Under the pieces are notes generated by a model. That model ran no database searches and was not told the origin of the DNA. It saw only the letters and a program-made list of their open reading frames with translations. 64,000 nt of DNA from Deuterostichococcus epilithicus. Lineage: Eukaryota; Chlorophyta; Trebouxiophyceae; Prasiolales; Stichococcaceae. Below, in pieces: positions 9,201 through 64,000 of the stretch. Made by a program: the position numbers and the translations under genes. Within the stretch, counting starts at the first letter, position 1; each line of letters opens with the position of its first letter. Location: assembly GCA_033439295.1 (NCBI GenBank), contig JAVTLE010000003.1, positions 1,984,001 to 2,048,000 of the forward strand. Reading direction: 5' to 3'.

Positions 9201-12200
9201 AACAGCCGGCAGTGCAATGAGCCGCGCAAGGCCCCTTGGAGCCAGGGGTTGCAGCGGCCTCTGTCGGCACGGCCAGGCGGTTGCCAAGGCATGGCTTGCG
9301 GACGCGGCTGGCGCTGCAGACTGCCAACACACCTTGGAGCCGGAGGCCTCCGCCAGCGCGGCCAGGCGGCCCTGCAGTCCCGCCTTCTCCTGCAGCAGGC
9401 CCTCCACCCGCCCGCGCGCATCCCGGAGCTTCCGCCTCGCCTGCGCCCACAGGCCAGAGGGTGAAAAGGCATCTCGCAACCCTGACACTGTAGCCCTGCC
9501 TTTCCCTGCAGCAGCGCCTCCACGCGACTCCAAGCATCCGTGAGCTCCCGCCTCGCCTGCACCGCCGGGCCGGCGGTGCAGGCAGGCAGGTTCACTGCTT
9601 CCTGCTTGTTTCCAACGCAGAGCTCGACAAGACAATGTGCAGAGAGACGCTGGACGTGTCACACTTGACGGTGATCCAGTTGCCATGGTTTGCCAACCCT
9701 CTTCCAAGGACACAGAAGATGGACCAAAAGCCCACTCCTTGCAGGCGACCCAGATGTGACCACGTGTTCCCATGTGCAACCACGACTCGCCACCGGACTC
9801 GCACCTCGGCGAGCTGCGCCGCTGCGCTCCCTGTGGCCGCCGGCGCGGCGGTTGCCAGCGCCTCCTGAAGCGCTGTCCGCTCCGCCTGCAGCTCGGTGAC
9901 CCGCGCACGCTCTGCCGCCAGGCGCTGGTGTGCATCTGCGAGCTGCACTTGCAGCGAAGCCGCCTCGTCTGCCTGCGAGGGGTTGTTGCATTACATCTCA
10001 TGACGGTCGCCGCACAGCCGGAGTGCAGCACATTGAGAGGCAGCCGGATTGCCGGTTTATTATCCGCTGGGGCTATAAGAGCTTCGGAGGCTGTTGCGAC
10101 GCCAGGACTTGGGCTGAAGAGAGGGCAGAGAGCCTAGCAAGCTTCATCTATCGGGCTCAATATCGCTTGTCAGCTTCTTGCCTCTCTTCAGCCCAATACT
10201 TCAACCCTCTATCCAGCCAGCAGACGTTGTGTCCAGCTGGGATGTGGCCACCTGCAGCTGCAGGGATGCCAGCCGGGCGTCGAGGTCGCGCTGCTCCGCC
10301 GCCGCCAGCGCGCAGCAGTCCGCCAGCGCAGCGCCCAGCTTCCCCTGAGCTGTCACCGCCGCCGCCGCCGCCAACGACGCAACTCCCATGGCGCCGTCGA
10401 CTGAGTTGGACATGCCGGTAGCCGCGGCGGCCTCGAGACGCACCACGAGCCCCGCCTGCTGTGCCGCGAGCTGCTGCCGGTCTGCCTCGACGACCTGCAA
10501 CTCGCCGCATTTGAAAGCTGAACCGGAGGGGGGATGGACTGGTGTGGGTCGCGACGAGCTTGTTGGAGCTGGCCTCGTCAGGGGGAGTTCGGCTAAGACG
10601 ACTAACAGCATCCCAGAGATGCTGGACCAGGCGCTGAAGCCCAGGGCTGTTGTATCAGGGTACTGGTGAGATCGACTTCTGTGAGTGACCTGTGCCTATA
10701 GCACATGCACAAAAACCAGGGAACTGGCACCTGCATGCGCTGCATCAGACTATCCCGCTCGGCCTCCTGCTGCGCCTTGCCAGTCGGCTGCTCCCGGTCG
10801 GGCGTCAGCCCAGCAGACTGTTGCGGCTCAGTGCCGCACGGCAGCCATGCGCCGGCAGACGCCTCCTCGTCATCGGACTGCGACCACACGCTGGACTCCG
10901 CGTCTGCAGCGGCGAGAGGGAAACGTCTGCATCAGCACCGCCAGCATGCTCGGGCATCGCACGTGCAGTCGAAAGATGTGTGCTGGGCGTCCACTCCGGT
11001 CTTGCACCTGCTCTGCTGCTCACGGCGCCATGGCTGACTGTCAGAACCAGCAACCTGGCGTGGAGGCATGCACAGCAATCAGCCCTGCAGTGTAGTGATG
11101 CACATCGATCAGAGCAAGTATAGCGCGCCCACCCTGCTGGTCGTGGAGAAGCGGCGATGCGGCGACACTAACAGCACGGCCTGGCTGCGGCGCCTGTGCC
11201 GCCGCCGGGACCGCCGCCGCAGGAATTGTTGCCTCCGGAACCGGCGCCTTTGGAACCGCCGCCCGGGCCTCGTCGCCCAGAGTGCGCCGCAGCCGCTTGC
11301 GGCGCACTGCGACAGCAATCATTCTGAGGTCAGGATCAGCGCAGCTCGACATGCGCAGGGGCGCCTGCGCTCAGTGAAGCTTCTTCGGACACCCCCAGCC
11401 CCTGAGAGTCCTGCGGCCTGCAGGCCCGGCGGCATGTGTTGTCAAGAGGGGCAACCCAACTGAATTTCACCAACAAGGCATCTTGACCAGCACAGCGAGA
11501 AGATCCCATCCCGAAAGCCACACCTTCCGACATGGGCGCAAACGCCGCTTCGCCCTCGTCCTCGGAGCCGCCACCCTGCGGTGTCGCGGCGCCGCTGCAG
11601 GCGCCCAGCGGCGTGCTCGCGCCGCTGCCGGCCACCGACGCGGGAGGGCCCCATGCCGCCGCCGGCGCAGTGGCCCAGCCCCGCCCGCCGGCGGTGNGGC
11701 GCGCCTCCGCCGCCGCCAGCGCGTTCTGCAGCCCCGGGCTCAGCGGCGGCGGCGTCTGCTGCGCGCGCGCCACTTCTGCGGCCACGTCAAATGCAGCCTC
11801 CGGCGGCGGCCCGCCAACCGGGAACCTCGTGGGCGCAGGCACGGCGCTCCGGGCGTCACCGGTGAGCGCCGCCGCGGTGCGCGTCGCATCCAGCTCCGCG
11901 GAAACGGCGTCGCGCTCTGCTGCCGCCTCCTCCAGTCGCTGCTGCACGGCCGCCTGGCGCCTCCCTGCATCCGCCAGCTGCTCCTGCGCGCCCGCCAGCC
12001 TCGCCTCCAGTGTGGAAGCCCGATCGGAAGCAGGTGCAGCCGCCGCCCACGCCGCCGCCAGCTGCTCTCGGGCGTCACCCAATTCGTGCCGGACATCGAC
12101 CAGAAGGGCCTCCGCCTGCGCCGCCCGTGCCGTGGCCGTTTCACCGGCCGCTGCGCACGTCCGCTCGCCGGCCTGCGCCGCCGCCAGCGCCGTGTGCAGG

Positions 12201-61350: not shown

Positions 61351-64000
61351 CTAGACGTCAAATAGGTCCAGATGGTCCTGCAGCGTCTCCCCCCGCCGGA
61401 TCTTCTTTACCTCTCCGTCCTCAACCCAGTACTCCGCCGGCCTCATCTGCACGCAAATGCCAAGGTACGGTCGTCAAGAGCACCGTCGGCAGACTCGAGC
61501 AGCAATGACGTTGCACACGGGACGGAGAGACGCCATGCTCGGCGTCGCCCCCGCGGCATGCGCACGGCTGGCAGGCTCCTAGAACCCCAAAACCCGCATG
61601 TGGCCCCAGTGATGCATCGACAATCCACGCATAGTGTTCCCGCCCTCGCTGAACCCGGGGAGCAGTCAACACCTGCAGCTTTGCAGATGGTGGCCATGGC
61701 CATACAGCAGGCGCCGTTAATGACCGATCTCTGTCACAGACGGGTCTCGATGCATTCGGCAATCACCTGCAGGTTGTAGGTGGAGGCCATTGCCATGCAG
61801 TAGGCCCCGGCGTCATGCACCACCAGCCCGTCGCCGGCCGCCGGCGCCGGCAGCTCCCGCTCCTTGCCCAGGAAGTCCGCCGACTCGCACACCGGGCCTG
61901 CAGAAGCACAGCGAGTTAACTGAGGAGCCGAATATGCAAGAACTATGTTTTCAGTTCTTACTTTCGTATTATAACTTGTACTTCTGCACAGCTGCGCTCC
62001 TGAGACAGCGAAGACGATGGCTCTGGCTGCGGCCACACCTGAGCATGCTCGCCTGCCGGCTTGGCCCACTCGAAGTCTCAGCTGTGCAAAGTCAGTTCAG
62101 CACCGCATAGAACTTTCTGTCTCAGGGCGACAGCAGTCTGGTCTCGTCTCTCGGACCACGTCTCAAGCACCTGTCTGCCGGCAGCCGCGCCGGCACGCCG
62201 ATGGCAACACTATGCATCTGCTCGAAGGCTATCACCAGCCTCGAGCGTCAGGTATGTCTGCCGCCACTCGACTCCACTCTGGCAACGAGGGAAGGTGCAG
62301 ACATGCCATTACTAGAGGCGGCGCACCAACGATGTCGTAGGTGTCTGTTGGGCCGTCAGTGGGCTTGGTCAGCTCAATGTGCTGGTAGGCGTCATAGAGT
62401 GAGGGGCGGATGAGCGCTGACATGGAGCCGTCCACCACGATGAAATTCTTGGTGCCGTTGGTCTTCGTGCCCGTCACCTGCACAGACGAACGAGAAAGGT
62501 TTGAGGAGATGCAAGAACGGGGGCATTACTGTCGGCGCGTGCTCTTCACCAAGGGCCCCCCTTTCCCGCCTTGATGACGGGCGGAGCAGCGAGCAGACCG
62601 CTTCCGCTGGGCCGCCGCCGGCGGCCGCAGCGGCTTTGGGGGCAACTCAGCGCAACCAAGTTGCAGCGCCGGCAACCTTCCACGGCAGTGCAAGGCGGCA
62701 CCGGTGGCACTGCTGACACTGCCAGGTGCACAGCAGGGCGGAGGAGGATGTGACCATGGAGATCCAACACAGACGATTTCACAGAGTGATTAAGCAGCAC
62801 CGTGTTGACAAGGGCGGAGGAGGTGGCGACCATGGAGCGCCCCGGCTCAAGGATGAGCGTCAGCCCGGTGGAGGCCACCAGGTCGCGCACTGTGTCAATC
62901 AGGTCCTGCGGCGACGGCAGCACCTCCCCCCTGCAAGGCAGCACGGGACCTGAGGCGGGCGCTTCAGAACACGAGAAAGAGGGGCCGCCGGCGATGCGAC
63001 GATGACTAGCCTGCGACACTGCAGGATTGGCGGACCCGGGGGCAGCGCCCCCCCTCATGGATCGCGGGCGCTGGCGGGCGGAGCGCTCCAGCTTCTCTGG
63101 CGTACACGCCATGGCAGGCAGCGAGGCAGCGAGGCTGGCGTCCTAAATAAGATGAGCTTGCCGCTCTGCAGGGCATCTGGCTGCAGCCAGCAGCGGCGCA
63201 TGGGCGTGGCAGAGGGCCCCGACACTTTTGAGGGGGCCACACGAGTTGTAACATCCTCAACCGAAGCAGCCACGATTTTTGTGGCCGCAGACAGGACCCG
63301 CCTGTGGTAGTAGTCGATGCCCAGGCCGCCGCCAATGTTGAGGTACTGCAGGTCGAAGCCCTGGTCCCGGATGTGCTTGACGAAGTCCACCATGAGTACC
63401 GCCGCGTCCCTGAAGATGTTCACCTGCGCCCCAGCGGCGCGAATCAGGCATCGGCATGGAATGGCACGGTCGAAAGGATGGGCGGCGAGTCTTGCACGCC
63501 CCAGCGGCGACACAGAGAGTCAGGGACACAGCAGGCCGGGGTCGGGGCGCGGTTGGCGCGGTTGGCGCGGTGCAGCGCCGATGGAACGCTGTAAAGGGAG
63601 GCCCCAGAACGGCCTCGCCATCGTTGTCAAAGGAGGTTCCATTCGTACGTGCCTGGTTGTGGGCAGCGGCAGAACAGCCCTGACAAATAAAGGGTCCGCA
63701 CCTTGGTGATAGTGGAGCCCAGGTGGCAGTGGGCGCCCACCAGCTCCAGGCTGGGCTCTGCTTTGATGGCGTCCAGGAACCACTGCAGGAGGTGGCATGA
63801 AGACAGTGAGGGGCTGCTGTTGGCAATGGCGTCCAGGAACCAATGCGCCAGCAAGCGGCTTGTGGCGCAGTTCCAGGATCCCTGACGCGGAGGGGCTGAT
63901 GGAAACAGTGGAATGGAGAGCGAAGGCAGATGCTGGCGGCTGGTGTGCAGGGCATGGCGGCGCTGTGTGACCGCGGATCAGGTTGGCTCTGCTCGGCTGT
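61351..64000 (-). CDS. lysA: Diaminopimelate decarboxylase, N-terminus beyond the right edge
   Basis: This PLP enzyme makes L-lysine from meso-diaminopimelate in the plastid. Exons on the reverse strand, in order: [20 protein letters not shown] and LGSTITK (63782-63702), [20 protein letters not shown] with [17 protein letters not shown] (63418-63305; GGGLG is the PLP-phosphate loop), [20 protein letters not shown] and [17 protein letters not shown] (62932-62815), [20 protein letters not shown] and [20 protein letters not shown] (62478-62339), [20 protein letters not shown] and [19 protein letters not shown] (61899-61769; CESAD holds the catalytic cysteine) and [20 protein letters not shown] with [10 protein letters not shown], stop at 61351-61353. 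The sequence matches plant DAPDC almost block for block. About the first third, including the PLP lysine, lies outside the window. Confidence 0.95.
63766..63842 (-). repeat. Tandem duplicate of the start of a lysA exon
   Basis: The reverse strand reads TGGTTCCTGGACGCCAT twice, 60 bases apart (63766-63782 and 63826-63842). The genuine exon gives [12 protein letters not shown]; the upstream copy gives [13 protein letters not shown]. Only the first has a clear acceptor (cctgcag) directly before it. Confidence 0.7.

Follow-up and report, generated by a model that had tools for sequence, protein, structure and literature searches.

The stretch considered here, hereafter the window, comprises 64,000 nucleotides of contig JAVTLE010000003.1 (positions 1,984,001 to 2,048,000) of the trebouxiophycean green alga Deuterostichococcus epilithicus. 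Along it, genes for a coiled-coil protein, a GRWD1-like WD40 protein, a PDI and a diaminopimelate decarboxylase (lysA) carry decayed copies of an exon edge inside the intron adjoining that edge; we call such a copy a ghost. The PDI, WD40 and lysA genes match solved structures, the PDI being nearest to PDIL2-3 and PDIA6 and lysA being, by its match, the plant enzyme. The real edges and their ghosts, together with a weaker case in a further gene, are located as follows:

9372..9460, minus strand: exon start of the coiled-coil gene with its acceptor, real copy (repeat family D5; acceptor gcag/GCGAGGCGG by eye)
9488..9576, minus strand: acceptor-side ghost of the coiled-coil exon start (spacing 116; 75% over 89 nt)
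9249..9280, minus strand: donor-side ghost of the end of the same coiled-coil exon (spacing 89; real edge at about 9333-9369; family D14; the copy also placed at 9256-9280)
20768..20822, plus strand: start of the last exon of the GRWD1-like gene, real copy (from gene models and repeat alignment)
20654..20708, plus strand: first ghost of the GRWD1-like exon start (spacing 114)
20551..20589, plus strand: second, farther ghost of the GRWD1-like exon start (spacing 214; family D6, 72%)
27545..27575, minus strand: exon piece of a leucine-rich-repeat-like gene, real copy (gene named by eye; the weaker case, the protein itself being repetitive)
27686..27716, minus strand: possible acceptor-side ghost in the leucine-rich-repeat-like gene (spacing 141; score 86, near chance level)
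33879..33955, plus strand: exon end of the PDI gene with its donor, real copy (from homologue comparison and alignment)
34009..34078, plus strand: donor-side ghost of the PDI exon end (stop codon, GT lost; spacing 123 ungapped, 130 gapped)
63766..63786, minus strand: lysA exon start QWFLDAI, real copy (from repeat scan and homologue)
63826..63846, minus strand: acceptor-side ghost in the upstream lysA intron (spacing 60)
62811..62837, minus strand: lysA exon end SMVATSSAL, real copy (from repeat scan and homologue)
62735..62761, minus strand: donor-side ghost in the downstream lysA intron (spacing 76; placed on the wrong strand by the gene finder)
61764..61809, minus strand: lysA exon end ASTYNLQ, real copy (from alignment and homologue)
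61670..61716, minus strand: donor-side ghost in the downstream lysA intron (spacing 93-94)

Thus listed, the coiled-coil exon has ghosts on both of its sides and three exon edges of lysA are copied, while at the GRWD1-like gene our models treat the farther pair as exon-exon and the nearer one as exon-intron. At the margin of the coiled-coil ghost, positions 9547-9590 form a nearly palindromic stretch of 44 bp (minus-strand self match of 89%).

The sample was extended from the window to 19 further 10-kb stretches (190 kb; loci in these are labelled L) of the same genome, giving 254 kb, or 0.54% of its 46.8 Mb in 21 contigs. Gene structures are the predictions of our own hidden Markov model (HMM) gene finder, trained on these 254 kb from sequence alone, which converged on 92 genes with 414 introns and learned sharp splice signals (donor CAG/GTGCG, acceptor YTGCAG/G). 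Its models are wrong at L015:5158, L012:9570, L020, lysA and the upstream part of the GRWD1-like gene, because the copies there resemble exon or because the window edge cuts the gene. One such exon of the models, L015:5108-5166, reads as a ghost when compared with malate dehydrogenases.

Two kinds of control show that these copies recur far beyond chance. Scanned for complex direct repeats at local spacings of 25-300 (low-complexity and short-period repeats dropped), the 254 kb yielded 55, against 1.4 in five block dinucleotide shuffles, and 28 of the 55, taken at a spacing of at least 50, have one copy in an exon and the other in an intron; the PDI, coiled-coil and lysA genes are the window's contributors among these 28. 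The second comparison set each exon edge against its own intron and against length-matched introns from other genes (395 introns, 60 permutations; introns below 70 or above 1500 nt left out). At a score of at least 30 it gave 13 acceptor-side matches where 0.22 were expected and six donor-side matches where 0.18 were expected; at a score of 36 the counts were 10 and five, against 0.0 expected on either side. A more permissive scoring, taken at a score of 85, gave 20 against 3.25 for acceptors and 12 against 2.5 for donors, so that acceptor-side copies are the commoner; at its lowest score, the donor side is without excess (52 against 62) and the acceptor side has little (80 against 65). In all, 26 of the 395 introns examined, or about 6%, hold a copy, a few of these being weak. 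The original prediction had claimed such micro-duplications for the coiled-coil, GRWD1, PDI and lysA genes and had proposed a genome-wide comparison of exon edges with adjacent introns; all four genes do carry the repeats, their spread is wider than these four, and in the sample they are strongly enriched over both shuffled and permuted controls. The ghosts occupy 18 genes against 21.0 expected (p 0.08), and we claim no clustering by gene.

The source of the copies is equally restricted. At a score of 32, the flanking exons account for 17 of 694 exon-intron pairs (among them W:62725, a wrong-strand model that was dropped from the tally of intron numbers and lengths), whereas the other exons of the same gene gave 0 of 2,615 and the antisense strand 0 of 694. 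The ghosts are 21-94 nt long, 66-95% identical to the real edge and in direct orientation (the tallies of copy length, alignment, divergence and intron length exclude hits with a spacing of at least 300 and weak hits outside 80-150). The spacer that separates a copy from its junction measures 35-82 nt in 24 of 27 cases, and the distances between copy and original are also tight: 70-149 nt holds 22 of 28 acceptor-side diagonals (2.0 expected) and 11 of 14 donor-side ones (0.8 expected), a single copy possibly counting on several diagonals. A small second group on the acceptor side, at 190-249 nt (4 against 1.2 expected), corresponds to loci with serial ghosts, in which two copies of one edge follow each other: L005 (107 and 243), L017 (111 and 213), L007 (109 and 209) and the GRWD1-like gene (114 and 214 nt). 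L012 and L007 also have ghosts on both sides of an exon. The alignments extend to the junction for 16 of 18 acceptor-side and for six of 10 donor-side copies, which is required of a duplication unit that spans it.

Differences between ghost and exon are spread across the three codon positions (0.18, 0.20 and 0.24) and the 28 alignments contain 80 gaps; hence the ghosts decay like noncoding DNA. Their divergence varies, in line with the different stages of decay raised in the original prediction, copy substitutions ranging from 0.057 to 0.271 and the copy at L012:9767 differing at two positions in 41 nt. Read by eye from the alignments, AG is kept in 17 of 22 acceptor-side ghosts and GT in two of six donor-side ones (Fisher p 0.06). 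Introns with a ghost have a median length of 391 nt, against 218 nt; the excess remains significant when the comparison is confined to introns of at least 150, at least 170 or at least 200 nt, but not when it is confined to those of at least 250 nt (p 0.18), and part of it may reflect the room needed to hold a copy.

The host genes are ordinary. They encode, among others, a Snf7-family protein, two kinases, midasin, a poly(A)-polymerase-like protein, a ceramidase and a malate dehydrogenase, and all eight ghost-host proteins submitted contain Pfam domains. Where homologues permit a check, namely in the PDI and, by a solved homologue, the malate dehydrogenase, the protein continues unchanged across the ghost-bearing junction. 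The exons are therefore genuine, given these spanning homologues and the Pfam domains, and the events look like the lengthening of existing introns. Paralogues that might serve as an outgroup for dating were sought in the genome: the midasin and lysA regions match only themselves, and the kinase and malate dehydrogenase regions match only short pieces elsewhere, those of the malate dehydrogenase gene (L015:3400-6800) lying on contigs C11, C18 and C19.

These properties are best explained, with a probability of roughly 0.6, by small duplications that straddle existing splice junctions, the original splice site being kept and the intron becoming longer by one unit. Under this reading, a stretch of about 75-150 bp across an exon-intron junction would have been duplicated next to itself, and this repeatedly. 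Of the two splice-site copies that result, the one that preserves the protein, that is, the downstream acceptor or the upstream donor, would be used; the other, along with 20-90 nt of former exon, would turn intronic and decay. The intron would thereby gain one unit and retain a ghost of the exon edge, which in most cases probably has no function.

Tandem duplication demands that the spacer, too, be related to what lies beyond the ghost. This was examined at 20 loci, after removal of W:62725, W:48680, L010:990, L004:9400, L019:5296, L005:1487 and L015:5158, of those with a spacing of at least 160 and of four of the 24 then remaining, which had too little flank. The relation is found at L005, whose ghost is 91% identical and among the least diverged, and at L015:3996 (p 0.00 each); at L005 the spacer is related to the sequence before the ghost, in the arrangement that a tandem duplication predicts. 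Over all 20 loci, 10 have p<0.2 and five p<0.1.

Several observations weigh against junction-straddling duplication in its simplest form. If flanks and ghosts decayed at equal rates, 72% of loci should retain spacer homology (p<0.1), where only the five of 20 do; a 1.5-fold faster evolution of the flanks lowers the simulated expectation to 26%. Flank identity averages 0.51 in 40-nt windows, where 0.64 would be expected and unrelated pairs give 0.49, and the copy at L012:9767, at 95% identity one of the least diverged, is without flank homology (p 0.41, on a flank of only 66 nt). Young copies are few, with two of 28 below 0.12 substitutions, and the structures are HMM predictions. Further, the 64 repeat pairs comprise 35 exon-exon pairs (many of them coding repeats), 22 exon-intron pairs and only four intron-intron pairs, though random placement predicts that the last should outnumber the exon-intron ones. 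The divergence of the intron flanks beyond what simple tandem duplication predicts, taken with the lack of comparable repeats within introns and of older hidden copies, suggests either a bias toward splice junctions or a slower decay of the copies.

One way to accommodate the flanks is to suppose that only the exon edge was copied, a few nucleotides of intron and 30-90 nt of exon being placed by templated insertion 35-80 nt into the intron, with the spacer not duplicated. The sharp ends of the copy at L012:9767 and the spacers unrelated to ghost flanks at most loci speak for this, and it would account for the missing intron-intron pairs; yet the spacer homology at L005 and L015:3996 speaks against it, and it leaves unexplained why most copies include the junction and none is inverted. 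We regard it as improbable. Another alternative is that small tandem duplications struck introns and junctions equally and, being old, are seen only where purifying selection on the exon has frozen one copy. A burst simulated with 0.3 substitutions per site indeed comes close to the data, with a copy divergence of 0.18, flank homology at 26% of loci and invisible intron-intron pairs. The same burst leaves only about 11% of junction events visible, so that a position-blind process of this age would have left most of them hidden, and their trace should persist in the introns. After removal of the detected copies, however, no clear residual excess of 6-mers shared with the exon edge is found at lags of 60-149: the rates per 10,000 are about 4.9 for acceptors (4.8 at 150-299) and about 4.5 for donors (4.9 at 150-299), in a test with a slight bias against residual signal, as it removed every permissive-scoring hit with a spacing below 300, some of them there by chance. 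The self-lag profile of the introns likewise falls off gradually, without any hump at 60-149, even though its rates in that range (4.2-4.6) slightly exceed those at lags above 180 (3.5-4.2). Moreover, 22 exon-intron pairs against three intron-intron pairs (two of the four share one minisatellite-like stretch) gives p 0.002 even if a 1.83-fold longer visible lifetime is assumed for the former. Position-blind duplication thus reproduces several of the numbers in simulation and fails the hidden-copy test, and we consider it unlikely.

Taken together, these misfits leave three readings: junctions are preferred sites, plain intron repeats disappear faster than ghosts do, or some ghosts were copied without a spacer. 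We think that one of two things, a bias in formation or a slower loss, is real. A stronger version of junction-straddling duplication would have the exon-intron boundaries of this lineage act as hot spots for duplications of about 110 bp, via chromatin, R-loops, nicks or co-transcriptional repair, a ratchet that would grow introns outward from their splice sites and leave datable ghosts behind; such targeting is a tentative possibility, less likely than not. A further rival reading is that ghosts are retained as decoys, as a second splice site or an exon-like stretch that regulates splicing, in keeping with their conservation above their flanks and with the AG retained in acceptor-side ghosts. 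The many gaps and the nearly flat codon-position profile speak otherwise, neutral decay at about 0.19 per site would by our estimate leave AG in some 14-15 of 22 ghosts, near the observed number, and the donor ghosts have mostly lost their GT. A decoy role for the ghosts is very improbable.

The original prediction had gone further and raised tandem duplication across AGGT as one proposed route to new introns. The resemblance is one of kind, both involving tandem duplication near splice-like sites, and we searched 410 introns for the signature of the Rogers model, in which the two ends of an intron should each resemble a flanking exon when compared one intron length apart. The lowest threshold gave a weak two-sided excess, four introns against 0.8 expected, of which L020 is the only case inspected; L020 is also the one strong outlier and proved to be a model error, with a donor-side ghost beside a mis-called acceptor and the true next exon continuing with GGDPTGKG farther on, a reading guided by the cyclophilin-like identity that we take the gene to have. 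No convincing gained intron was thus found among the 410, and gain by this route is an extremely improbable account of the ghosts. Of the original idea, recurrence at exon edges as a habit of this genome holds and the route to new introns finds no support; existing introns seem to lengthen instead.

Other classes of event were also considered and set aside. Introner-like families do not appear in the 254 kb of the 46.8 Mb, where the 27 ghost spacers match only themselves and pieces of 14-18 nt. Duplicated cassette or mutually exclusive exons, conceivable at single loci, do not agree with the 80 gaps in 28 alignments, the flat codon profile and the stop in the PDI ghost. Insertion derived from cDNA should have drawn on non-flanking exons, which gave none of the 2,615 pairs. 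Continuation of a copy past the splice junction into the next exon, also expected of a cDNA origin, was scored at 65 or more at five of 28 loci, which we read as short introns or wrong models, with the test touching the exon itself. An assembly artefact from two haplotypes seems unlikely, since the copies have frame breaks and sit at junctions.

The work on introns considered here mostly concerns their gain, whereas the ghosts bear on how introns lengthen. With the exon as a fixed reference, small and old duplications become recognizable in about 6% of the introns examined, their ages readable from divergence; a junction bias, if true, would indicate that some process of mutation or repair is linked to splice sites. 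Gao and Lynch have reportedly worked on internal gene duplication. A search of titles and abstract openings in the open-access literature, with subscription journals outside its scope, found no description of ghost exon edges recurring in introns. Among the described events known to us, the nearest is in a potato RdRp gene, for which a single recent tandem duplication across an intron-exon boundary is reported to have created an extra intron, as confirmed by RNA-seq (Ma, Lan and Niu, 2016; PMC4974935). There, as here, the duplication crosses the boundary and a former piece of exon is spliced out; the potato report describes one new intron, whereas in D. epilithicus existing introns lengthen many times, with varied divergence and no gained intron found. 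The AGGT model of tandem genomic duplication is similar, as it is outlined, in that splice sites are provided a second time by a local duplication (PMC3443670), but here the unit spans an existing junction and the intron length does not equal the unit. Break repair is a described route to small tandem duplications; the relevant passages of that account draw no tie to splice junctions (PMC8355091). Introners are presented as a lineage-specific mass change of intron content, green algae included, which the ghosts resemble; they form families of similar introns, unlike the ghost spacers, which are without convincing relatives in the sample (PMC9860276).

Some minor features accompany these loci. 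Words of CCCTAAA occur inside introns at L005:4021-4073 and, on the minus strand, at L017:4061-4080; they are plant-telomere-like. Strong tandem repeats with spacings in multiples of 3 lie in predicted coding sequence at L008:145-760 and L008:7219-7688. In the window, 50107-54153 (minus strand) is a predicted gene, assigned by eye to the GATA-type zinc-finger proteins, in which long CTG/glutamine repeats occupy 51473-51561. The stretch 56060-56340, in a long predicted intron, is minisatellite-like and one of the few clear noncoding tandem repeats; its copies stand 60 and 141-151 nt apart and are 89-95% identical over 19-27 nt.

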